IMG/VR virus record: IMGVR_UViG_3300037247_000311
Location: 1-61,863 of that record
DNA: 61,863 bases
Direction: 5' to 3' (one strand)
Source: a virus
This document shows, piece by piece, positions 5,378 through 50,553 of the stretch; position 1 is the first letter of the stretch; each line of letters starts with the position of its first letter. The translations under genes were made by a program, and so were the position numbers. The notes beneath the pieces were generated by a model. The model saw nothing but the letters and a program-made list of their open reading frames with translations. It searched no databases and was not told the origin of the DNA.

Positions 5378-7567
5378 TTAGCGCGTAACGATGCCTCCCG
5401 GCCCAATAGCGTACTCTCTCTGGATTCCCCGCCGCCCTGCACCAGAAAACGCGTGTCTCAGCCCATAGCGAGCAGCGTCAGGGGCATGGTCTTCGCCATC
5501 TGAGTCTACGTCCTCTACGTTGTGCTCGTCTACAATGAGCAGCGGAAGCGTCCGCACAAGGTTCACGCAGGTATCAAAAACAAAGAACCTAGGCGGCGAA
5601 CTAACTCTTCCAGTGGGGTCTTCCGTCCAGTCCACCATCTCCCGCATGAGTCGCCAGCCCGGAACACGCTCGTTGTTCCCCTTGAGCACAGGCGCTATGC
5701 CTGCAAAGCCCCTTTTCCAGTCATCGGCCATAGACTCGATCTGTTCTCCCTTTACGTTCACCTTGCTAAAGAGGGACGGATCAAGAACCACCGCACGAAG
5801 AGTCTCAGAGGAGTCTGCTACTACTTGCTTTGCACGATAAATCTGTTCGCTCAGTTTCACGCCTTCCCCATACTGCTCACGGTAGAAGTATGCTACCTGA
5901 GTACCAGGGGGCCTCGCAAACCACAAGGTTGCATGGGGAGCACCATACCCATAGTCATTACAAAGGAACCTATCCCAATCAGGAGGAATATCAAAAGGCT
6001 TCACTACATGAAGCTCCGGACGCCAGCGTACGAAGAACTGGCCCATAAAGACTTCCCAGTCTCCCATTGCAGCGCGATATTCTTCATAGGGAAGTGCTCT
6101 CAGCCGCTCCGTATAGTTTGGGTCAGCCTTCATGAGAGTGTCGTTATCTGTAACCTTAGCAGGGATATATTGACGAGTCATACCGCCTTCAGCTACGGGG
6201 CTTCGCCAGACTTCTCCTGGTTTAGCAGGATCGTACCAACGGGCTTTCACCCAGCCATGTCCACGTCCAAGAGGAGTTGCCCCCGCACGTATACGAGGTC
6301 CCGGCCACCAGGGCTTAGTAGAACGACAACGGCTGGTGAGATACGTGTAGATGAACTGCGTAAAGTGCGTTAGCTCATCTAGGAGGATTGCGTCGAACTC
6401 GGCTGTATCATATGTATTCTGAGACGATAGACCCGATGCAACATAGGTATCACTACTAGACGAAAGGAGTGCCACAGGTCGATCAACGATCTCATCTACG
6501 GCGACAACAACGACTGACTGTGCACGGCTTTGAGGCACAGGAAGAGATTTTCCTAATAGTTTTGCCCACTTATCAAGTAGTCTGGGCGGGCGCGTCTCTA
6601 TAAGAAATCGAATAATCTGATCCATACCAAACAGGCGTACTTGATATGTATTACGGTGAGGAAGACAAGGATCAACTACAGAAATCCTATAACCCCTCTT
6701 AGTAAGCATACTCTTAACTGCACTAAGAAACGAGTTATCCTTCTGTGAGAAAGTTAGCATTGCAGAGCCGCCCGATATTGACAAACACCCGTCTGCATCA
6801 AATGCAGCAGCTAAGAATCCACTCTCATAATCCCGCCCCAAGTCTGTAGGGGGCGCAATCTGCCTAATTGCAACCTTCTCACCTTGCTTTATCCGCTTAT
6901 ATATCTCATCAGTTCGGAGCCAGTGGGGGCCATATCCCCTATCAACAAGCCATTTGTGTTCTGGATTAGCATCAATTGGCTGTCTATCATCAAAGTGTAG
7001 CCGATGTGTTGGCATAGTAACAGTACTATTAGATGTAACTACTGCACGGCTTAATCTACGTCGGCCCCCACGCTTTAGCACATTCCTGTCAAACCCTAGG
7101 ATTTCATCCCCCGCTCTTAGTTTGTCCGCTCTGACCCAACGCAAGTCTGCCGTAAGTATTGGAGTGCCTATTCCCACACACCGGGCGTCTTCGTCTTTCT
7201 CACAAAAGCGGAGGTGGAGAATCGACCCATTCTTAAAGATCAGGTCGTGGGACTTAGATGAGTAATGTGCGATGGAGGCCGGTACTTCCTGCTGGATAGA
7301 GATAATGTGAGTCTCTTCCAGTTGCCGGTAGGACTGACGGAAGAGAACCACCCTCGCACCAGGGTACGTCATACAGTATCGTACGGCCCAAGCACGAAGC
7401 GCGTAGGACTTGCCTCCACCCTTAGCTCCACCATAGAGTACTTCTTCTGCTTCACTCTCCATAAAATTAGATTGGGGGCCAACATGTGTTTGGTAAAGCA
7501 CGCGTTTCTTCTCACCTCCACCACGGCGGATAGCGTGCTGCTGAGCTGAGAGCCTAGCTCTGGGCAT
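5378..7567 (-). CDS. Terminase large subunit, interrupted by an intein
   Basis: 729 residues including a 255-residue intein (residues 130-384), leaving a mature protein of about 474 residues, normal for a terminase large subunit. The N-extein carries Walker A (YGGAKGGGKSYALRA, residues 45-59). Walker B with its acidic pair (FDAILLDELTHF, 391-402) lies just after the intein. The C-terminal half looks like the RNase H-like nuclease domain: acidic residues in DYGYGAPHATLWF, a middle one in VVLDPSLF, and a final cluster near DGEDHAPDAARYGLRH. The enzyme pumps DNA into the procapsid through the portal and cuts the concatemer. The start overlaps the small-subunit gene by 14 bases. Confidence 0.93.
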   Translation of the reverse strand: MPRARLSAQQHAIRRGGGEKKRVLYQTHVGPQSNFMESEAEEVLYGGAKGGGKSYALRAWAVRYCMTYPGARVVLFRQSYRQLEETHIISIQQEVPASIAHYSSKSHDLIFKNGSILHLRFCEKDEDARCVGIGTPILTADLRWVRADKLRAGDEILGFDRNVLKRGGRRRLSRAVVTSNSTVTMPTHRLHFDDRQPIDANPEHKWLVDRGYGPHWLRTDEIYKRIKQGEKVAIRQIAPPTDLGRDYESGFLAAAFDADGCLSISGGSAMLTFSQKDNSFLSAVKSMLTKRGYRISVVDPCLPHRNTYQVRLFGMDQIIRFLIETRPPRLLDKWAKLLGKSLPVPQSRAQSVVVVAVDEIVDRPVALLSSSSDTYVASGLSSQNTYDTAEFDAILLDELTHFTQFIYTYLTSRCRSTKPWWPGPRIRAGATPLGRGHGWVKARWYDPAKPGEVWRSPVAEGGMTRQYIPAKVTDNDTLMKADPNYTERLRALPYEEYRAAMGDWEVFMGQFFVRWRPELHVVKPFDIPPDWDRFLCNDYGYGAPHATLWFARPPGTQVAYFYREQYGEGVKLSEQIYRAKQVVADSSETLRAVVLDPSLFSKVNVKGEQIESMADDWKRGFAGIAPVLKGNNERVPGWRLMREMVDWTEDPTGRVSSPPRFFVFDTCVNLVRTLPLLIVDEHNVEDVDSDGEDHAPDAARYGLRHAFSGAGRRGIQREYAIGPGGIVTR
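6416..7180 (-). other. Intein in terminase large subunit (LAGLIDADG type)
   Basis: Starts at Cys130 (CVGIGTPILTADLRWV; splicing block A) and ends ...DTYVASGLSSQN with Asn384, followed by Thr385 as the +1 nucleophile. Block B is NPEHKWL with its His. A single LAGLIDADG-like motif is visible (SGFLAAAFDADGC, residues 249-261), so the homing endonuclease is small. The usual penultimate His is Gln here. The insertion site lies next to Walker B of the ATPase, a conserved place where inteins commonly sit. The boundaries rejoin exteins as DEDAR-TYDTAEFDAILLDE, a normal terminase sequence. Confidence 0.92.
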
Positions 7568-12686: not shown

Positions 12687-13301
12687 ATGGAAAGCAAGAC
12701 AGAGACAGCAATCCTTGAGGCCATCACAGCACAACAAGACGTACTCAAGGGCATCACTACGCGCATGGACGTGCTAGAGGAACAGGCAAGGGTGGTTACG
12801 GTCACGTCGCATGATGTGGCTGTAGCATCGCCGAAGACTATTGACAGACCGCCGAAGAGTAAGGGCCACAAGGTTACGACGATCAAGGCCGACGACCCAG
12901 AACTGCTATCCCTTCGCGGACAGATCACACGCGAGGGCAAGGCTAGGCTGATCGACAAGTGTGCAGCTCACAGCGTAGACGCGCTTCGGACGCTGATTCT
13001 CGCAGGCGGTAGGGCTGCCCGAGAGTTCATGGCCGACAAGCGTACGGCTGCCACAGCGGATGAGGAGTTCCACCTGGTAGACTCAGCCAACGGGCGCTAT
13101 GCCCACGCGCGGCTAGGCCGGATGGAAAGCGGCAAGGGACCGACGGTCGTCATCTCACACACGAAGACAGTGGGCGCGGCCAAGATGACTGCCGACATGA
13201 CAGATGAGCAGCTTCTCGCGCATAGGCCAGTGGGCGCGTCGAACAAGTACGCCGCCCGTCACGCCTGGCTGAAGCGCACGAGGGCTAACCTGGGCTCGTA
13301 G
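12687..13301 (+). CDS. Early protein with coiled coil (204 aa)
   Basis: ATG 12687 with AGGAGG upstream. The N-terminal 45 residues look like a coiled coil (AILEAITAQQDVLKGITTRM), then a basic linker (RPPKSKGHKV), then a mixed domain with a short basic tail. No family recognised. A regulatory or DNA-associated role is only a guess. Confidence 0.75.
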   Translation: MESKTETAILEAITAQQDVLKGITTRMDVLEEQARVVTVTSHDVAVASPKTIDRPPKSKGHKVTTIKADDPELLSLRGQITREGKARLIDKCAAHSVDALRTLILAGGRAAREFMADKRTAATADEEFHLVDSANGRYAHARLGRMESGKGPTVVISHTKTVGAAKMTADMTDEQLLAHRPVGASNKYAARHAWLKRTRANLGS

Positions 13302-14344: not shown

Positions 14345-15385
14345 ATGACTAAACGCACATTTAATTATGGTCGGGTGGTAGCCCGTAGGAGCCTTGTGAG
14401 GTGCCTAGAAAGCTATCAGGCTAGCGTCGGGCAGGCACAAGAAGACCTAGATGCCTATGATCTTCCACGCCCTGAGGGGCCAACGCTTGATGAACTACAG
14501 GAACTTCCAGGTAGATGGCCGGAGCTAATGGGTATAGCCATCCGCAACAGGAAGATTCATGCCAAGTTTATTCCTGTATATTTTAGGAATAGCCGTGGTG
14601 CTAGGGCAATGAGTAGTGATCTACACGTAGTTCTTGACAGGGATGGGGAGCCTCGCCTAAATGGAGCACGTTCTCCCGGCATACATCCACACACACGTGG
14701 GTCTAATATATGTCGAGGAAATGTAACTAAACTTTTCTCCACTATGGTTGCTTCGAACCAAGTGATAGCATCGCTTGATCTCATTCGTCGGTGGCGTCTG
14801 GGCTATAAGTTGTCAGGTGTATATAGGGTAGGCTGGGAGGTGTGTGGGTGGCAATGGCTACATGATGTGCGGCAGGGTGTGGTTAAAACAGCCTGGGACA
14901 ATGGGCTAGTCCAAGATAACCGATCGGGTGTGGTACTCCCCTTAGAGGACGCTCTTGAAGGGAAAGTAGCTGACTATATTCATATGGGCCTACGCCAAGC
15001 GTGGGTACGCCCATCAGAGGTTAGAGACCCTGATGCTGCACCGCGTGAGTGTATTGGATGTCAGGGGCGTACGCTATTGTGCTCGTGTCATGAAGACCGT
15101 ACTTGTGTTGGCTGTCAACAGCGTCAAACTTGGTGCCTCTGTCAGGACTCAAGGTTTATTATAAACCGTGAGTTACGTTCTGGGGAGATACATGCAACTG
15201 GAGTTGTGCCCTCTGGTGAATATGATGGGCCATGTAGAGAATGTGGTGGCCCCGGCCCAAACATAGTTTACACAAGGACTGTGGGTGGTAGGGACAATTC
15301 TTCCTGCTACTATTGTGCCTCGTGTACAACATATGGTGCTGAGGCACTTAAGCTACGTGCAGAGATCGCAGGAGACGCTAAATGA
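14345..15385 (+). CDS. E2-like (UBC-fold) protein fused to zinc-knuckle repeats
   Basis: First gene of a ubiquitin-like cassette. Residues 70-160 have the layout of bacterial E2-like proteins: beta strands (IHAKFIPVYF, DLHVVLDRDG), then HPH at 114-116 and a Cys at 123 (NICRGN), then a helix pair. In that family the Cys accepts the ubiquitin-like protein from E1. Residues 236-271 hold two tandem 18-residue repeats of pattern CxxC-x6-CxC (CIGCQGRTLLCSC and CVGCQQRQTWCLC). Another CREC ... CYYCASC set is at 297-327. These probably bind zinc and might choose the target, like an E3. The stop overlaps the JAB start (ATGA). E2 assignment rests on short motifs plus the neighbours. Confidence 0.65.
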   Translation: MTKRTFNYGRVVARRSLVRCLESYQASVGQAQEDLDAYDLPRPEGPTLDELQELPGRWPELMGIAIRNRKIHAKFIPVYFRNSRGARAMSSDLHVVLDRDGEPRLNGARSPGIHPHTRGSNICRGNVTKLFSTMVASNQVIASLDLIRRWRLGYKLSGVYRVGWEVCGWQWLHDVRQGVVKTAWDNGLVQDNRSGVVLPLEDALEGKVADYIHMGLRQAWVRPSEVRDPDAAPRECIGCQGRTLLCSCHEDRTCVGCQQRQTWCLCQDSRFIINRELRSGEIHATGVVPSGEYDGPCRECGGPGPNIVYTRTVGGRDNSSCYYCASCTTYGAEALKLRAEIAGDAK

Positions 15386-16065
15386 TCTTACTCACAAAAG
15401 AAGCTCGTCAAATGATGGCCTTAGCCGTACAGAAGGCACCAGCACTAGAGGTATCTGGCTTTGGGAGAGCAGATATACAGGGGCACATGGTTGTCGTCCG
15501 CAGTATTTTCATTCCGCCACAGGAAGTTGATGCTGCACATACGGCTGTTACGGGCGATAACCTTCGTATAACTCTTGAAGCATTCATCCGTGCGGGCACA
15601 ACGCTTGCACAATGGCCTGTATGGTGGCATTCGCACTGTAGTATGGGCGTTATGCCGTCACCACAGGACTATACAACACTTGAGCTGTTAGCTGAAGAGT
15701 TACCAGACTTAGGCTGGTTTGCGGGTATTGTTACCAACACAAAAGGGGAGTACCACGGCTGGATAGAGATAACGAGACCACTACCGTTGTCTGCCGAAGT
15801 AGACGTAGTACATGATCTAGAACAAGTACCTAAGAAGCTACATACAAGGGTAGACGAGATGATGAAACAGGTTAAGCCAACGGTGTATGCTCCCGCTCGA
15901 AGGGGCATACCGAATGTTACACATCATGATATGTGTACTTGTACCACATGTATGGCTAATGCACAAGCTGACATTGCGGAGGGCCAAAACGAGGAGGAGC
16001 TTATACGAGAGATGCGAGCATCGGGTATGTTCTTAGGAACACGAGCGGGAGAGGATGAAGTATGA
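15382..16065 (+). CDS. JAB/JAMM-domain metallopeptidase of ubiquitin-like system
   Basis: 227 residues. The JAMM signature is complete: Glu23 (ALEVSG), then His83-Ser-His85, seven residues, Ser93-Pro-Gln-Asp96 (HSHCSMGVMPSPQD). These ligate the catalytic zinc in isopeptidases that trim ubiquitin-like proteins or remove them from targets. The C-terminal 60 residues add a CTCTTCM patch. The gene shares ATGA with both neighbours, so the E2-like, JAB and E1-like proteins are translated together. It is not the NlpC-linked JAB of tail assembly: it lies in the early arm, without an NlpC domain. Confidence 0.9.
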   Translation: MILLTKEARQMMALAVQKAPALEVSGFGRADIQGHMVVVRSIFIPPQEVDAAHTAVTGDNLRITLEAFIRAGTTLAQWPVWWHSHCSMGVMPSPQDYTTLELLAEELPDLGWFAGIVTNTKGEYHGWIEITRPLPLSAEVDVVHDLEQVPKKLHTRVDEMMKQVKPTVYAPARRGIPNVTHHDMCTCTTCMANAQADIAEGQNEEELIREMRASGMFLGTRAGEDEV

Positions 16066-16733
16066 TTGACGAAGGCACACGAGCACTACACTCGGAATCG
16101 AGGTTCCTCCGGCAACACCAGATCATCCATCCTCAGATGGCAGGCATGGAGGTGATTATAGCAGGCGCAGGGATGATAGGAGGATGGACAGCGCATGCGT
16201 TGAGCCGGGCAGTGAGGAGAGTCCACCTCTTTGACCCAGGGGATGTGGAGTTGGTGAATACGGGGAATCAGCCATACTCACCACATCATGTAACTATGTC
16301 TAAGGTAGATGCATTTGACCTACCCAACATTACGCCCCATGTTGAGGCGTTTCCTCGTAGGCGGGCATGGCCTGTTATGGGACAGGAAGTCTTTATCTCT
16401 GCCGTAGACTCCATGTCTGGGCGTAGGGCCAATGCTGAGTGGAGCAAGCATGCGAAACTGCCACTCTTCCTTGATGGCCGCATACGTGGAGAGTTGGCCG
16501 TCCTAGCTGTTGTTACAGACCAGCGGTATGATGAGTACCTAGAGGCGCTCCCCTCCGATGATGATGTTGAAGACGTACCATGTGGTATGGAAGGAAGCGC
16601 GTATGTGGGGATGCACCTTGCCGCCCGCATTGCTGCTACCATCAATGCTTGGTGCAAAGGAACACAGATACCAAGTATGTATGTCTATCATGTGGGGCTT
16701 GACCAGTTAGTGACGAAGAAGTTTCAAGACTAA
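16062..16733 (+). CDS. E1/ThiF-like adenylyltransferase
   Basis: 223 residues, close to ThiF/MoeB single-domain length. Nucleotide-binding loop GAGMIGG at 35-41, followed by VHLFDPGDVELVNTGNQ (Asp58, Asn66) as in the family's D-x-D-x(n)-N-x-x-R/Q stretch, then Lys81, and SAVDSMSGR (Asp116). Cys174 (VEDVPCGMEG) is placed like the catalytic Cys of E1 proteins. It would adenylate the ubiquitin-like C-terminal glycine using ATP and pass it on as a thioester. Overlaps the JAB gene by ATGA. Confidence 0.88.
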   Translation: MIDEGTRALHSESRFLRQHQIIHPQMAGMEVIIAGAGMIGGWTAHALSRAVRRVHLFDPGDVELVNTGNQPYSPHHVTMSKVDAFDLPNITPHVEAFPRRRAWPVMGQEVFISAVDSMSGRRANAEWSKHAKLPLFLDGRIRGELAVLAVVTDQRYDEYLEALPSDDDVEDVPCGMEGSAYVGMHLAARIAATINAWCKGTQIPSMYVYHVGLDQLVTKKFQD

Positions 16734-16740
16734 GGTACTC

Positions 16741-16754
16741 CACCCTTCGGGGTG
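16741..16754 (+). other. UUCG tetraloop hairpin
   Basis: CACCC-TTCG-GGGTG: a very stable hairpin eight bases after the E1-like stop codon. It may slow 3' decay or attenuate expression of the following gene; there is no T-run for a classical terminator. Confidence 0.6.
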
Positions 16755-16772
16755 TGTATCAAAGCTGCGGAG

Positions 16773-16788
16773 GGTCGTGATCACGACC
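16773..16788. promoter_or_regulatory. 16-base perfect palindrome, possible operator
   Basis: GGTCGTGATCACGACC reads the same on both strands. It lies between the E1-like and ubiquitin-like genes and could be a binding site for a dimeric regulator, or form a hairpin in RNA. Confidence 0.45.
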
Positions 16789-16825
16789 AAGAATCTCCCG
16801 AAGAAGATAGTACAGGAGGCAGAGA

Positions 16826-17077
16826 GTGAGTGGAGGAACGGTAACTGTCGGTACACCATCGAAGCAGGAGACCTATGGCATCAACGGTACTATGGAGACT
16901 GTTGGTGATGCACTTGGTAAGTTCTTCGATGGTGGACAAGACCCATTTAAGGACCAGTCCGTCAGTCTGAATAGTAGAGAGTTGACCACGGAAGATACAG
17001 ATCAGCCGCTCCGTAATAGTGACATTATCCTTGTCATGAGCAAGAGGCTCGCTAGTGGGGGCGTAAAGGGCGCATAG
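16826..17077 (+). CDS. Ubiquitin-like beta-grasp protein
   Basis: 83 residues; GTG start with AGGAGG seven bases upstream. The order of elements fits a beta-grasp fold: two strands (GTVTVG, ETYGI), a helix (VGDALGKFF), a strand (QSVSLNS), then the loop-strand end TDQPLRNSDIILVMSKRL, similar to the NGxxL...PLxxGDxVxV pattern of ubiquitin-like proteins. It ends SGGVKGA: a di-glycine followed by four residues, so the JAB peptidase next door could trim it to expose Gly-Gly for the E1-like protein. No Cys. It is the likely tag of the cassette. Confidence 0.78.
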   Translation: MSGGTVTVGTPSKQETYGINGTMETVGDALGKFFDGGQDPFKDQSVSLNSRELTTEDTDQPLRNSDIILVMSKRLASGGVKGA

Positions 17078-19476: not shown

Positions 19477-19676
19477 CAACGGATTGCTCTAGGTTTTCAG
19501 ATCAGGGAGAGTGCTGCGACTACTGTCACAGGGAGGGGCGCATATATAAGTCTGCTAGAGTATCTCCCGATATTGTGCGTATCTGTTATTGTCTTGCAGC
19601 AGATATGGGTCAGGGGTTTGTGCTTCACTACGAGAGAAAGTTTAGGAGGAAGCGTGAGTTGTCTGGCCCCGCCTGA
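19473..19676 (+). CDS. Small Cys-rich protein (67 aa)
   Basis: ATGA overlap with the previous tiny gene. DQGECCDYCHREGRIYK and a later CYC suggest metal binding. A basic tail (YERKFRRKREL) follows. Function unknown. Confidence 0.65.
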   Translation: MTTDCSRFSDQGECCDYCHREGRIYKSARVSPDIVRICYCLAADMGQGFVLHYERKFRRKRELSGPA

Positions 19677-20220
19677 TCTCCTTAACTGTACGCAATGTCC
19701 TCTCCATGCAACACGGAAGGCCGTTGTACCAGGACACGGAGACATACATGCTCGTATCATGCTAGTAGCAGAAGCGCCAGGAAAAGTAGAAGAGGAACAC
19801 CGCGAACCGCAACCGCTTGTTGGGCCAGCAGGTAGACGGCTTAATATGATCCTGGCAAAGGTACCACTGGATAGGGCAGAACTCTGGCTCTCAAACGTAG
19901 CGAAATGTAGGCCCCCTTCCAATGATCTCCGTCCGTATCCTAACACTGTGATCCTCTGCCCACAGCTATGGTTAGACGGTGAGATACAGATAGTGCAGCC
20001 CGCAGTTATTTTAGCCCTAGGAGCTACAGCAGGGGCACGTTGGTTCCCCGGCTATCAAGCAAGTGAGATGGCCGATATGCAACGTGTGCTCCCAGACGGT
20101 AGGGTTGTATGTGGGGCCTTCCACCCTTCATATGGATTGAGAAGAGGGGGTGATTGGAATAGTATTGATGAGAGTATCCGTAAGTCGTTACTGAGAGCTA
20201 AGGAGTTAGCAAATGCTTGA
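19654..20220 (+). CDS. Family 4-type uracil-DNA glycosylase
   Basis: 188 residues from GTG 19654, placed after AGGAGG; longer frames upstream overlap another gene. Four Cys for a 4Fe-4S cluster (CTQCPLH near the start, AKCRPP, ILCPQLW), the family's active-site region LVAEAPGKVEEEHREPQPLV with GPAGRRLN, and a C-terminal HPSYGLR loop. These enzymes remove uracil from DNA. In a phage this may protect its DNA from deamination, or act on host DNA. Ends overlapping the next gene by eight bases. Confidence 0.9.
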   Translation: MSCLAPPDLLNCTQCPLHATRKAVVPGHGDIHARIMLVAEAPGKVEEEHREPQPLVGPAGRRLNMILAKVPLDRAELWLSNVAKCRPPSNDLRPYPNTVILCPQLWLDGEIQIVQPAVILALGATAGARWFPGYQASEMADMQRVLPDGRVVCGAFHPSYGLRRGGDWNSIDESIRKSLLRAKELANA

Positions 20221-20413
20221 ACTAATAGTTGTACCCGGCCAGTATGAGGGCTACTATTATGACGATCTTGTTGCGTCACTGGCGGATAAGAAGGAGCGCC
20301 TAAGGTTTGAGGACTGGATGTGGGGCCAAACGTGTGCGATCCATAACAGTAAGTCTCTTGTGTATCGTTGGGATTGGGAGAGATACCTAGCAGGTTTACC
20401 TGTTATAGATTAG
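20213..20413 (+). CDS. Small acidic protein (66 aa)
   Basis: ATG overlaps the glycosylase stop. Begins MLELIVVPGQYEGYYYDDLV; includes a Trp-rich part (EDWMWGQTC). Function unknown. Confidence 0.65.
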   Translation: MLELIVVPGQYEGYYYDDLVASLADKKERLRFEDWMWGQTCAIHNSKSLVYRWDWERYLAGLPVID

Positions 20414-20549
20414 GAGTAGGAGATAGTTGGCTATGGATAGGAAACGCCTATACCCCTATGTAAGGAATGCGAGCGGCAACGATGAGCGGTCCTAGCGCGA
20501 CGGCTCGTGGCTGGCTAGGGGGAAGACTACTTGGCAGAAGGGCAGGCGC
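20414..20549 (+). other. Gap before DNA polymerase with two tiny ORFs
   Basis: No firm gene. A 20-codon ORF (20433-20495, or from TTG 20427 with AGGAG upstream) and a 23-codon ORF (20482-20553) overlap each other and lead into the polymerase start; they might be coupling leaders, but neither product is recognisable. Confidence 0.3.
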
Positions 20550-22928
20550 GTGACCCAGTATATAGACCTTCAATCTCTAGGCCCAACAGACACGCTTGCT
20601 GTTCTACGTGTACGGTTGCTTGGCCTATCGGGCACGCTGCTCCCAAGAAACGAACGAGGCAATGCACTGTATGCACTAAGGCGGGGCGACTCTATTACAT
20701 GTATGCCGTCTACTTACTTGTACTGGCGTCGCCTTTCGTCAGATATTCCGATTGTTAATGCGGAGGACACATCTGTGGAGGATGATCCGCGTAAGCGTAT
20801 CGACTCGTGGTTACAGTGGTGGTTGGCGGGACTGGGTATGTCACAGGGGGGCGCAGTGGCGCTCATGCGGAACCCCCCAAAGACTGACAAGCATCAGCAT
20901 TGGGACCGATGGCAGCTAGCTCTTGTGTTGGCGGAGCAGTATGAGCATGTGTGCCAAGGGCCACTGCCTACGGGTCTAGAGACTGTTGGTACTACAGTAA
21001 AGGTAGAACGGCCTTATCGTTGGACACTTGTACACAATGATGAGGACTACGTACGTGTTGCCTATTTGATAGACCATGAGGCTGTTGTTGGGCTAGATGT
21101 GGAGACAGATATTGCAGGCGCCGCGCCAAATGAGACAAGAGACGCACTAATTGGCGTCGGGCTTGCATTTAGTGATGAGTGCTTCTATGGTGATGCTAAG
21201 GACTGGTATGGGGGGAACCGATGGTTGGAGTTATTGCGCACGAAGCTATTTAGGATACCGCATGTGGCCTGGAATGCCAAATATGATGATGTTGTACTTC
21301 GACAACATGGCATTACCCCTGGTCCACTCCACGGTGATGGTATGCTAGCAGCCTACCTTGTAGGTGAGCACCGTGCGGCACTCAAGCCTTACGTTCTTCG
21401 TACATACGGGGTACGTATGATTGAGTATGACGACGTAATGGGCAGTAATAAGTCGCTACGTGATGTCCCAACAGAAACCGTTGCTGAGTATTGTAGCGGC
21501 GATGCGTTTTGGGCACTGAAGGCTGAAGCAGACCTACGACCGAGACTCAACCCTAAGGCTCTTGCGCTGTACGAGCAGACTGACCTCCCGATGGTGAATA
21601 CTATTGTGGATATGGAACTGGCGGGTATCGTACTGGATAGAAACAGTACGAGTGATGCTCTAACGGATACTAAGACAGAGCTAACACGCCTTAAAACGGC
21701 AATCACGCTACTCGTCGGGGCATCAGGCTTCAATCTTTCATCTACTCGTAAGGTATGTGGGGGCTGTCGTAATGGGAAGAACAAGAAACTTACCTGTACG
21801 GACTGTGATGGCAAGGGGGAGTTCTTCTATGAGAATCCTATTAACCCCGGCCCCTCACACCAACTAGTCCAGTGGTTACATGGACACCTGAAGATACCTA
21901 TCCAGGCTATATCTCAGAAGACACAGCAGCCGTCTGTCTCCTCCTTAGCGCTCCTCCGTATGCAACATAAACATGCGGCCATTCCTATAATCCTACGTTG
22001 GCGTACGCTAGAGAGATACCGGCAGTTCCTTGAGGACTGGTTGGCTGAGGCAGATGAGCAGGGCCGTATACATACGAGCTTCACGTTGGCTCATACCCAT
22101 AGTGGGAGGCTGTCATCTCGTAATCCGAACCTCCAACAGCTGGCTCTTGCATGGCGTAAGCACTTTGTAGCTAGTGATGGGAGGGTGCTTGTTGCGGCAG
22201 ACTACCATGCCTTGGAGATACGCGTGGCAGCATTTGTATCAAGAGACGAGGGCTTGATGTCCATCGTCAACTCTGATCCTGAGACGCCTGCTGGTGACAT
22301 CCATGCACAGAATGTGTATAAGCTCTTTGGGATTCCGTACGAAGATCAGCAAGATCATAAGGCTCTCCGTACTCGTGCCAAAAACTATATGTTTGGTGCG
22401 CTCTACTGGTCAAAGGGTTATGAAGTTGTTGAGGTGCTAGAGAAGCTCATCCTTGCTGACCCGTCTCTTGGTGTGCCTCCTACGTTGAAGGAGATCATGC
22501 GAGGGATACAAGATATACGTGCAACGTATCCACACTACTTCCTTGAGTGGGGGTCGTATATGATTGAACATGCGAGAGAGCAAGGGAATACCTCATATAC
22601 AGCCTTCGGACGCCCGCGTGTGCTACCTGATCTCGTATCACCCGTGAAGAGCCTCCGAGAGGCAGCCGAGCGTGCAACGTTGAACCATATCGTACAGGGT
22701 TCAGCCGCCGACCTCGCACGTATGGCCTGTAATGGGGTCACGAGGCTCGAAGGCGGTACGCTACTGCTCCAGGTGCATGATGAACTCCTATCAGAAGTCC
22801 TAGAATCAGAGGTTGACAGCTACGTCCCGAAGATGGTAGAATGTATGGAACTAGGACAGCCGCTAGAGGGGGTTCCACTGGTGGTGAAGCCACTCGTAGG
22901 GCGGACTTGGGAGGAGACACATGGCTAG
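20550..22928 (+). CDS. polA: DNA polymerase I (family A) with zinc-finger insertion
   Basis: 792 residues. 3'-5' exonuclease motifs are complete: LDVETD (183, 185), NAKYDD (about 242-247) and YCSGDAF (314, 318), so it can proofread. Polymerase motif A is DYHALEIR (551-558), motif B RTRAKNYMFGALYW (607-620), motif C QVHDELL (741-747). There is no 5' nuclease domain; the first 150 residues are not recognisable. Between FNLSST (394) and PSHQLVQWL (435), where other polymerases have an unbroken thumb motif, an insert carries CGGC and CTDC (Cys 403, 406, 416, 419). The enzyme should copy phage DNA. The GTG start has a weak SD, so the N-terminus is less certain. Confidence 0.95.
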   Translation: MTQYIDLQSLGPTDTLAVLRVRLLGLSGTLLPRNERGNALYALRRGDSITCMPSTYLYWRRLSSDIPIVNAEDTSVEDDPRKRIDSWLQWWLAGLGMSQGGAVALMRNPPKTDKHQHWDRWQLALVLAEQYEHVCQGPLPTGLETVGTTVKVERPYRWTLVHNDEDYVRVAYLIDHEAVVGLDVETDIAGAAPNETRDALIGVGLAFSDECFYGDAKDWYGGNRWLELLRTKLFRIPHVAWNAKYDDVVLRQHGITPGPLHGDGMLAAYLVGEHRAALKPYVLRTYGVRMIEYDDVMGSNKSLRDVPTETVAEYCSGDAFWALKAEADLRPRLNPKALALYEQTDLPMVNTIVDMELAGIVLDRNSTSDALTDTKTELTRLKTAITLLVGASGFNLSSTRKVCGGCRNGKNKKLTCTDCDGKGEFFYENPINPGPSHQLVQWLHGHLKIPIQAISQKTQQPSVSSLALLRMQHKHAAIPIILRWRTLERYRQFLEDWLAEADEQGRIHTSFTLAHTHSGRLSSRNPNLQQLALAWRKHFVASDGRVLVAADYHALEIRVAAFVSRDEGLMSIVNSDPETPAGDIHAQNVYKLFGIPYEDQQDHKALRTRAKNYMFGALYWSKGYEVVEVLEKLILADPSLGVPPTLKEIMRGIQDIRATYPHYFLEWGSYMIEHAREQGNTSYTAFGRPRVLPDLVSPVKSLREAAERATLNHIVQGSAADLARMACNGVTRLEGGTLLLQVHDELLSEVLESEVDSYVPKMVECMELGQPLEGVPLVVKPLVGRTWEETHG

Positions 22929-48534: not shown

Positions 48535-49194
48535 CTAGTTAAATGCCGATTCGGCGATCTCTGCCCAGTGGATCAGAGAGAACCCAGTGCCAGTCGCATT
48601 GAACATAACTGTCACAATGGAGCCCGCATCAATTACGATAGGGGCAATCCCACACTTAGCCACGCTCCACCTGATATAAGGATCGAGGTCAATCGTGTCC
48701 AAGTCTTGTGCGCTCGACCAGTGGAAGAGCACCCGCTCTGTAGCGTCCACATTATCTGTTGCGGACGATACTGTGTGCATCGCAGTTGCGCCCGAACTAA
48801 CAGGGTTGTCAACCCGAAGGTTCAACTCAGAAACCTCAGTTTCTGTTCCACCAGTACCATTGAGAGCCGTAGTGACCATAGCGGACATGTGGCTTACAGT
48901 AGCAGCGTTCAGGTTGAAGTTGGTCTCGATGAGCAGCGGAAAAGCCGCTGTAGCATCGGGAATATCCACGGCAAGCGTCTTTGATCCGTCCGCATAGGTG
49001 CCCATCACAGTGACACCCGTAATGTCGTACTCCCCTGGTGCAGCCGCTGAGAAACAACGGCCTTCAAGCACCAGTGCTTGATACCACGGAACAGCAATTA
49101 GAGCACCATCACGAAGCGCGCGAAGGTTAGTCCAATCACCATCCGATGCACGGCTCACGTTTTGCTGTTGTATTTTTACTCGTGCGTCAGACAT
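48535..49194 (-). CDS. Virion surface protein, tandem paralogue 3
   Basis: 219 residues. Shares with the next two genes upstream (49210-49866 and 49885-50553) the line LRALRDGALIAVPWYQALVL, then EGRCFSAAAPGEYDITG, YADGSKTLAVDIPDA, NPVSSGATA and VERVLFHWSS-type segments, and a final WAEIAESAFN. The common fold is beta-rich and probably exposed on the particle (decoration or appendage). It is the most diverged copy. Confidence 0.72.
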   Translation of the reverse strand: MSDARVKIQQQNVSRASDGDWTNLRALRDGALIAVPWYQALVLEGRCFSAAAPGEYDITGVTVMGTYADGSKTLAVDIPDATAAFPLLIETNFNLNAATVSHMSAMVTTALNGTGGTETEVSELNLRVDNPVSSGATAMHTVSSATDNVDATERVLFHWSSAQDLDTIDLDPYIRWSVAKCGIAPIVIDAGSIVTVMFNATGTGFSLIHWAEIAESAFN

Positions 49195-49209
49195 ATTACT
49201 CCTTTCTAT

Positions 49210-49866
49210 CTAGTTAATAGCAGACTCAGGCAACTCGGCCCAGCCTACAAGGCCAAAGCCCGTACCTGATGTTGCAGCAGTCATGATCAAGGCTAGAGAC
49301 GATGAGTCAATAGCGACAGGGGCGTACCCTACGTCGGCAACTGTCCACGTGCGACGGGGGTTAATAACCGTTGCGTCGAGGTCCTGTGCTGTAGCGAAGT
49401 GGAACAGCACCCGCTCTGTACCGTCAATGACAGTCACGCCAGAGTTACTTGTGTGCTCCACTGTTGCACCAGAGGCAATAGGGTTATCAAGCCTCAAGTT
49501 TAGCGCGTTTGTTGGTGTTGAATCAGCCGTTCCGAATGGCTGAAGTCCAACAAAGAAGGCTGCATTGACAATGACCGCACCTGTAGCAAGGAAGCTGGCC
49601 TCTGCATAAAGAGGAATCGCGGCCAGGCCATCGGGGATGTCCACTGCAAGAGCTGCCTCATCAGTGGTAAGTGCTACCTTCAGCGTCATACCGCTGTGAT
49701 CATATATAGTAGGACCCGCTGCCGAAAAGCAGCGCCCTTCTAGGACAAGCGCTTGATACCAAGGGCAGACAATTGCGGCTCCATCACGAAGAGACCTTAG
49801 TGCTACAAGCTGTCCATCATTTCCACGTGATAGGTTTTGCTGTTGTGCAAATACACGAATATCCAT
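49210..49866 (-). CDS. Virion surface protein, tandem paralogue 2
   Basis: 218 residues. Same block order as its neighbours: LRSLRDGAAIVCPWYQALVL, EGRCFSAAGPTIYDHSG, LAVDIPDGLAAIPLY, NPIASGATV, ERVLFHFATAQDLD and GWAELPESAIN. AGGAGTAACAC precedes the start, as for the other copies. Probable product of gene duplication. Confidence 0.74.
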   Translation of the reverse strand: MDIRVFAQQQNLSRGNDGQLVALRSLRDGAAIVCPWYQALVLEGRCFSAAGPTIYDHSGMTLKVALTTDEAALAVDIPDGLAAIPLYAEASFLATGAVIVNAAFFVGLQPFGTADSTPTNALNLRLDNPIASGATVEHTSNSGVTVIDGTERVLFHFATAQDLDATVINPRRTWTVADVGYAPVAIDSSSLALIMTAATSGTGFGLVGWAELPESAIN

Positions 49867-49884
49867 GTGTTACTCCTTTCTATT

Positions 49885-50553
49885 CTAAGTAATGGCCGAC
49901 TCTGGAAGTTCGGCCCAAGCAACCAGCCCGAAGCCGGTCTCACCACCAGCGGCAGCTACGGTTGCAACAAGGTTTATCGACGCCGCATCCAACACTACGG
50001 GGGCGACTCCAGCCTCCCCTACATACCACGTGATTCGCGGGTCCATAGCAATGCCATCAATCTGCTGTGAAGTTGCAAAGTGAAACAGCACCCGTTCGGT
50101 GCCGTCCACATTATCTGTTGCACCTGAGACGGTCTCCATTGCGGTCGCGCCAGAAGATATGGGGTTATCGAGCCTCAGGTTTAGCTCAGCGAGTTCGTTT
50201 TCTGATCCGCCAAGACCGTTAAGTGCGGTATTAACCATACCAGAGGCGTGGGCAACGGCCCCACCAACAGCAAGGAAGCAGAACTCCATATACAGTGGGA
50301 TACCAGCAGTAGCATCAGGGATATCTACTGCGACAGTCTTTGAGGCGTCCGCATACGTGGTCATAATCGTAAGACCAGCATGGTCATACGTACCGGGGCC
50401 AGCAGCAGAGAAACAACGGCCCTCAAGAACGAGAGCCTGATACCAGGGGCAAAGAACAGCGGCGCCATCACGGAGAGCCCGCAAGCCCAGCCATGACCCA
50501 TCAGGAGACCGTGTTACGCTTCCTTGTCGTACAAGTCCGCGAAAATCAGACAT
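49885..50553 (-). CDS. Virion surface protein, tandem paralogue 1
   Basis: 222 residues, first of three tandem copies and first gene behind the promoter at 50632-50660. LRALRDGAAVLCPWYQALVL, EGRCFSAAGPGTYDHAG, TVAVDIPDATAGIPLY, NPISSGATA, ERVLFHFATSQQID and AWAELPESAIT. Highly similar to copy 2. Virion decoration or adhesion role inferred. Confidence 0.74.
   Translation of the reverse strand: MSDFRGLVRQGSVTRSPDGSWLGLRALRDGAAVLCPWYQALVLEGRCFSAAGPGTYDHAGLTIMTTYADASKTVAVDIPDATAGIPLYMEFCFLAVGGAVAHASGMVNTALNGLGGSENELAELNLRLDNPISSGATAMETVSGATDNVDGTERVLFHFATSQQIDGIAMDPRITWYVGEAGVAPVVLDAASINLVATVAAAGGETGFGLVAWAELPESAIT

Follow-up and report, generated by a model that had tools for sequence, protein, structure and literature searches.

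Described ubiquitin-like systems and the locus studied

Ubiquitin-like systems of bacteria have so far been known mainly from plasmid operons and from antiphage defence. Here we describe a four-gene cassette, encoding a putative E2-like protein, a JAB/JAMM metallopeptidase, an E1/ThiF-like enzyme and a putative ubiquitin-like (Ubl) protein, in the IMG/VR record IMGVR_UViG_3300037247_000311 (positions 1-61,863, single strand; this whole stretch of 61,863 nucleotides is referred to as the window). The window comes from a tailed phage, a virus of bacteria, and its products match the terminase large subunit, major head protein, tail fibre and endolysin in PHROGs.

The PRTRC system of plasmids corresponds to operon type 6d of Iyer et al. 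2006 (PMC1779556). In the ten PRTRC plasmid loci that we read, the usual order was ParB-E-C(Ubl)-F-B(E2)-A(JAB)-ThiF(E1), with some loci lacking A or having ThiF moved. The Bil system (BilABCD, ISG15-like) consists of a Ubl, an E2, a JAB and an E1, and its Ubl is trimmed by the JAB; its hallmarks are a tandem Ubl (BilA), an E2 with a CEHH motif after the cysteine (BilB), and an E1 with inactive and active adenylation domains (BilD) (PMC11354881). A phage-encoded Ubl-like domain and a JAB are also found in the lambdoid tail assembly proteins TAPI and TAPK (PMC1779556).

A four-gene cassette shared among phages

The gene content, together with catalytic residues that do not vary and genes that are almost always inherited together, makes it probable in our view that the four genes form one conjugation system. 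The sequence-only reading that preceded this work had placed them at 14345-17077 on the + strand, with ATGA overlaps joining the first three (E2-like, JAB and E1), and both the open reading frame (ORF) coordinates and the overlaps were recovered exactly. All four ORFs have a positive coding score and a Shine-Dalgarno-like motif each. The same genes in the same order, E2-JAB-E1-Ubl, are present in a sister phage (L002, IMGVR 3300005253_000610), with identities to the window proteins of 29% for the E2-like protein (residues 57-172), 49% for the JAB, and 55% for both the E1 and the Ubl. In both genomes a uracil-DNA glycosylase (UDG) and a polymerase lie downstream of the cassette. A closer scan for the sub-branch of the window returned the sister phage only. 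The features of the cassette are listed below; conservation counts here and throughout refer to family alignments of 69-72 distinct rows each.

14345..15385, + strand: E2-like gene, 346 aa, putative core at about residues 57-176, in the same operon slot as the family E2 and PRTRC_B
14684..14713, + strand: putative E2 active site H114-P-H116 ... C123, with H116 and C123 invariant in 71/71
15050..15334, + strand: cysteine-rich putative Zn-binding tail of the E2-like protein, 16 Cys and 4 CxxC, in the window only
15382..16065, + strand: JAB/JAMM metallopeptidase gene, 227 aa, assigned by PADLOC JAB, hhalign and the family profile
15628..15669, + strand: predicted JAMM metal site H83-S-H85 ... S93-x2-D96 (with E23), conserved in 70-72/72
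16062..16733, + strand: E1/ThiF-like gene, 223 aa, assigned by Pfam ThiF and an independent family HMM (hidden Markov model)
16164..16184, + strand: nucleotide-binding loop GAGMIGG of the E1, from the motif and the family alignment
16581..16583, + strand: codon of the predicted E1 catalytic Cys174, invariant where aligned and aligning with E. coli ThiF Cys184
16826..17077, + strand: putative Ubl gene, 83 aa, GTG start, 55% identical to the sister-phage Ubl and placed in the family by iterative HMM
17057..17074, + strand: Ubl Gly-Gly and four-residue tail VKGA, the predicted JAB cleavage site; the end LASGGVKGA is identical in the sister phage, and the Gly is invariant in 69/69

A search of viral contigs with an alignment of five E1s returned 144 places with relatives, and the 80 best of these were read. 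To these 80 we added the window, FpV4 and two crAss-like phages, and iterative HMM searches of all their ORFs yielded 84 loci with an E1. Within one operon, these loci contained a JAB in 84/84, an E2-like protein in 83/84 and a Ubl in 81/84. In 78 of the 84 loci the gene order was Ubl-E2-JAB-E1. The order E2-JAB-E1-Ubl occurred three times, in the window and in two contigs of the sister phage. Among named phages, a crAss-like E1 or E2 query returned 74 records each, of the same make-up (Bacteroides crAss-like, Flavobacterium and uncultured phages). In phiCrAss001, a cultured gut phage and laboratory model, gp79 corresponds to the Ubl, gp78 to the E2-like protein, gp77 (annotated 'metalloprotease') to the JAB and gp76 ('thiamine biosynthesis') to the E1. 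Related cassettes are mostly annotated as 'thiamine biosynthesis' or 'hypothetical', and one record, PQ006092, labels the E1 as 'E1 enzyme family protein'.

The initial proposal of a Ubl-conjugation cassette in a phage is thus well supported by gene content, catalytic residues and co-inheritance, although such a cassette is not rare, with relatives at 144 places and in 74 named records. The order E2-JAB-E1-Ubl, of which the sequence-only reading knew no phage example with a Zn-repeat E2, is a minority variant of the window and one sister phage; the four-gene set is widespread, mostly as Ubl-E2-JAB-E1. We found no description of a phage E1-E2-JAB-Ubl cassette in the open-access literature, to which the search was confined. 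Unrelated small ORFs with coincidental motifs could in principle mimic such an operon, and the window E2-like protein and Ubl have no direct database matches. This explanation is refuted by the synteny with the sister phage at 29-55% identity and by the co-occurrence of the four genes in more than 80 loci, which leave it with virtually no credibility.

When 84,980 genomes of cellular species were scanned with patterns of this kind, three matches and no cassette came up; the patterns are short, and distant cellular relatives could escape them. One match is a ketopantoate-reductase-like protein (L088), another covers 28 profile positions only (L089), and the third is an archaeal E1 on a short contig without JAB or E2 (L087). 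In the latter, an Acidilobaceae contig from a metagenome-assembled genome, a small possible Ubl gene precedes the E1-like gene (L087:4183-5125).

A fifth conserved gene directly follows the E1 in 42 of 71 distinct phage loci, for example at L005:8696-9370 and as gp75 of phiCrAss001, and falls into two related clusters (hhalign probability 97.5). It has no database match and was not found in the window; its product is a possible substrate, adaptor or E3-like part.

Comparison with PRTRC, Bil and CBASS

The closest likeness in organization is to PRTRC, which shares with most phage cassettes the relative order Ubl-E2-JAB-E1 and overlapping starts; the equivalent of C-B-A-ThiF was found in 78/84 loci, and not in the window. 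The phage JAB family matches PRTRC_A (probability 95.5, E 1.4e-8) with a common HSHxxxxxFFSxTD, and the E1 families match at 1.5e-18. Of 45 family E1s, 44 match the NCBIfam model PRTRC_ThiF (best 7e-14), though the generic ThiF model scores better (1.2e-21). In contrast, the PRTRC and phage E2s have only C-x-G-[SN] in common, the PRTRC E2 lacks the upstream H-x-H of the phage proteins, and neither the E2s nor the Ubls of the two groups match in hhalign. PRTRC is located on plasmids and the phage cassette in phages, and the window further differs from PRTRC in having its Ubl last and MPS instead of FFS in its JAB. None of the window proteins matched PRTRC family models over the cut-off, and hhalign gave no match of PRTRC E or F among four frequent phage neighbour families. 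No ParB-like cluster was recognized among the recurrent neighbours, where no ParB profile search was made. A quick tree places the E1s of the phages and of the window pair in one group, separate from PRTRC, with moderate support (84).

Bil has the same four components and a Ubl in need of trimming. Its hallmarks are not seen in the window, which has a single short Ubl of 83 aa, an H-x-H before the cysteine with no E/H/H set after C123 in CRGNVTKLFSTMVASNQ, and an E1 of only 223 aa. PADLOC gave no BilA, BilB or BilC match in the window or crAss001; the crAss001 E1 matched BilD at 2.5e-5, behind the CBASS E1-E2 models. By these sequence features the phage cassette falls outside both PRTRC and Bil in their defined forms; it would work in the manner of PRTRC-type conjugation, to which it is probably distantly related.

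With type II CBASS (Cap2/Cap3) the window shares a related E1 adenylation domain (PADLOC E1-E2 at 1.4e-5; Cap2 in the PDB search) and a JAB-type protease. However, Cap2 is a fused E2-E1 whose target is the neighbouring cGAS-like enzyme, whereas in the window E1 and E2 are separate and a Ubl is encoded; no CD-NTase or cyclase of type II CBASS was recognized among the neighbours of the cassette. The TAPI/TAPK proteins include no E1 or E2 and belong to a tail module, while the cassette lies in a replication module.

E1 and JAB proteins

The third protein of the cassette is clearly an E1/ThiF homolog in its sequence, with a Pfam ThiF score of 33.2 bits against a cut-off of 28.1. A search of PDB sequences with the E1 family profile recovered UBA5, MccB, ThiF, UBA6 and CBASS Cap2, and the window E1 was found at 1.3e-28 by a family HMM trained without window sequences. 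Its Cys174 shares an alignment column with Cys184 of E. coli ThiF. Residues G35, G37, D116, D138-G-R140 and C174 are invariant where aligned, and at position 58, 70 of 72 family members have D and the other 2 have E. The loop GAGMIGG, D58, D116 and C174, which had been singled out from the window alone, are therefore present and conserved, and the ThiF match with the invariant C174 fits an E1-type adenylating enzyme with a catalytic cysteine.

The assignment of the second protein to JAB/JAMM is well supported by a PADLOC JAB match (1.9e-4), by the recovery of Rpn11 and AMSH-LP with the JAB family profile in the PDB search, and by the pattern of conservation. E23 and H83 are present in 72/72 rows and S93 and D96 in all aligned rows; the predicted JAMM set E23, H83, H85, S93 and D96 as a whole is conserved in 70-72/72 family members. 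Profile alignment with hhalign links the window to the phage family through the E1 (2e-29) and the JAB (3e-6).

The E2-like protein

E2 enzymes carry an active site of the form HPN...C. The E2-like protein of the window carries HPHTRGSNICRGN, in which the HPHx6C spacing resembles that site, and H116, C123 and G125 are invariant in 71/71. The AlphaFold2 model of a family representative (L010, 63 sequences) reached a predicted local distance difference test (pLDDT) score of 90.5, and its topology consists of a helix, a four-strand meander, a loop with HSH and Cys128, and then helices. In a Foldseek search of this model against PDB, 12 of the top 50 chains were E2, UEV or RWD domains, two kinetochore entries among them, and the four best of these 12 ranked among the top five. 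These matches are support for an E2 fold, not proof. The ubiquitin-conjugating (UBC) fold of the window protein is proposed from its HPHx6C motif and this well-modelled representative.

Several results weigh against this assignment, and some of them against that of the Ubl as well. The AlphaFold2 model of the window E2-like protein itself was poor (pLDDT 54) and its fold search uninformative, while none of the Foldseek matches of the representative fell below 0.001, so that they are not significant by E-value. In Pfam, NCBIfam, PADLOC and PHROGs the two window proteins matched neither an E2 nor a Ubl, the E2 and Ubl profiles gave chance matches only against PDB sequences, and direct searches with the window E2-like protein gave zero matches in phages or viral contigs. 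With window sequences left out of the training, the family HMMs fail to find the E2-like protein, the Ubl and the JAB of the window, and hhalign links neither the window E2-like protein nor the Ubl to the phage families. The match of the window E2-like protein to the phage family HMM is circular, as that HMM included window sequences; the weak alignment of the window protein with the family still superposes the H-x-H...C-x-G motif. Because the HMMs built without the window miss these three proteins, its place in the phage family rests on the E1, the gene order, the motifs and the sister contig, and the putative E2 and Ubl assignments on motifs, operon slot, family conservation and invariant residues.

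Alternatively, the first protein could be another Cys/His protein, such as a metal-binding enzyme, forming an unrelated partner of an E1-JAB-Ubl module. It has no sequence match to any E2 family, and the sub-threshold fold matches of the representative also include metallo-beta-lactamases. The latter, however, align over about 70 columns of the model and the UBC-type chains over about 150-200; the protein occupies the PRTRC_B E2 operon slot and shares the C-x-G-[SN] motif with it, and the HPHx6C spacing of the window is like the HPN...C of E2s. We regard a non-E2 partner as improbable.

The cysteine-rich C-terminal tail, with its 16 Cys and 4 CxxC, is absent in the sister phage and in the family E2s, none of which has more than one CxxC. 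It is a peculiarity of the window alone. The E2 of this lineage might have gained in it a putative Zn-binding tail with an E3-like job.

The putative ubiquitin-like protein

The Ubl had been described as ending in GG. The Gly-Gly is present, but it is not the C-terminus, as VKGA follows in the window and identically in the sister contig. The predicted Ubl would thus need cleavage before use. Across the family the motif reads K-[SA]-G, not GG, with the glycine invariant in 69/69. After K-S-G there is usually either a single residue or a long extension, a pattern that suggests processing at the conserved glycine. Long C-terminal extensions after K-S-G are found in many phage Ubls (e.g., L044:2607-3473), and two extended members show weak SAP-domain matches (best 0.052).

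A predicted conjugation cycle

We think it likely that the four genes provide a phage-specific, reversible ubiquitin-like conjugation cycle. In this cycle the JAB would cut the Ubl precursor after the conserved glycine, before VKGA in the window and before one residue or a long extension in its relatives. The minimal ThiF-type E1 would then adenylate the exposed glycine and take the Ubl as a thioester on Cys174, the E2-like protein would accept it on Cys123 and transfer it to an amine group of the protein substrate, and the JAB would later remove it from the substrate.

The same components could also act as a sulfur-carrier system: the E1 and the JAB would act on the Ubl to yield its thiocarboxylate for sulfur chemistry, as happens in CysO/Mec+ or PdtFGH, and the E2-like protein would be an enzyme using this product. 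Among NCBIfam models the E1 resembles ThiF most (best 1.2e-21), and bacterial E1, Ubl and JAB sets without an E2 do sulfur transfer (PMC1779556). However, neither a rhodanese domain nor a sulfur or cofactor metabolism family was found among the recurrent neighbours of the cassette, which are replication genes, and an E2-like protein with an invariant cysteine is present in 83/84 loci. We regard sulfur transfer as quite unlikely, slightly more so than a non-E2 partner.

Genomic setting and candidate substrates

In the window, gene direction and the guanine-cytosine (GC) skew switch near 12 kb and 38 kb, which puts the cassette close to the beginning of a rightward module; genes for UDG, DNA polymerase A and a helicase lie in this module too.

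19654..22928, + strand: UDG (19654-20220) and DNA polymerase A (20775-22928), from Pfam UDG and DNA_pol_A and synteny with the sister phage

Among the 71 distinct loci, the genes near the cassette encode a primase in 65, UDG in 50, a PD-(D/E)XK nuclease in 49 and a Holliday-junction-resolvase-like protein in 35, counts that are inflated by the shared ancestry of many of the phages. At least one replication or recombination neighbour was present in 47 of 48 loci longer than 12 kb. Neighbour clusters were named from crAss record annotation and by motif reading. The distant branch of the window has the same replication/recombination setting as the other loci.

From this position we tentatively propose, at somewhat less than even odds, that the substrate is part of the phage or host DNA replication/recombination machinery. 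Against this, the choice of a replication target is an argument from association, and early genes are kept together in phages in any case. Of the proposals considered, a reversible tag on a protein of replication or recombination is the most economical. The broader view is more doubtful still: a virus-specific system, not seen in the cellular genomes scanned and kept by crAss-like phages, Flavobacterium phages and many uncultured tailed phages, that would reversibly tag replication/recombination proteins during infection as a bacterial-virus counterpart of the ubiquitin/SUMO control of PCNA.

The roles suggested from the window alone, counter-defence or assembly, found no direct support, and the gene context points to a replication/recombination module instead. 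In counter-defence or host take-over the conjugation chemistry would be the same, with host proteins (e.g., defence proteins) tagged instead of replication proteins. Such a role would agree with the use of these enzymes in antiphage defence by Bil and CBASS (PMC10097602; PMC11354881) and with a cassette near the start of the rightward module, possibly expressed early. Genes related to defence normally vary, though, and the cassette stays with replication genes even between very divergent phages; known anti-defence genes were not noticed nearby, where no detailed search for them was made. We consider this role possible but rather unlikely, and favour the tagging of replication or recombination proteins.

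Other features of the window

The intergenic region between E1 and Ubl showed no significant RNA structure (z -0.87). Upstream of the cassette, a 204-aa gene (12687-13301, + strand) has 40% identity in the sister phage and no database match. The terminase large subunit (5378-7501, - strand, 707 aa) is matched by known terminases in two pieces. Its middle section begins with Cys (CVGIGTPILTADLRW...), ends in ...DTYVASGLSSQN before T, and has a DADG-type stretch; by these features the gene probably carries an intein. The tail region (48535-50553, - strand) contains three tandem paralogous genes of about 220 aa with a common LRDGAxxxxPWYQALVLEGRCFSA.

Significance for phage biology

If the proposed function is true, protein tagging would be part of the life cycle of phages themselves, phiCrAss001 (gp76-gp79) and those of Flavobacterium psychrophilum included. 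The same function would also provide a new explanation for the 'thiamine biosynthesis protein' and 'metalloprotease' genes of abundant gut viruses, and the cultured phages with the cassette would offer systems for a direct look at the tagged proteins.

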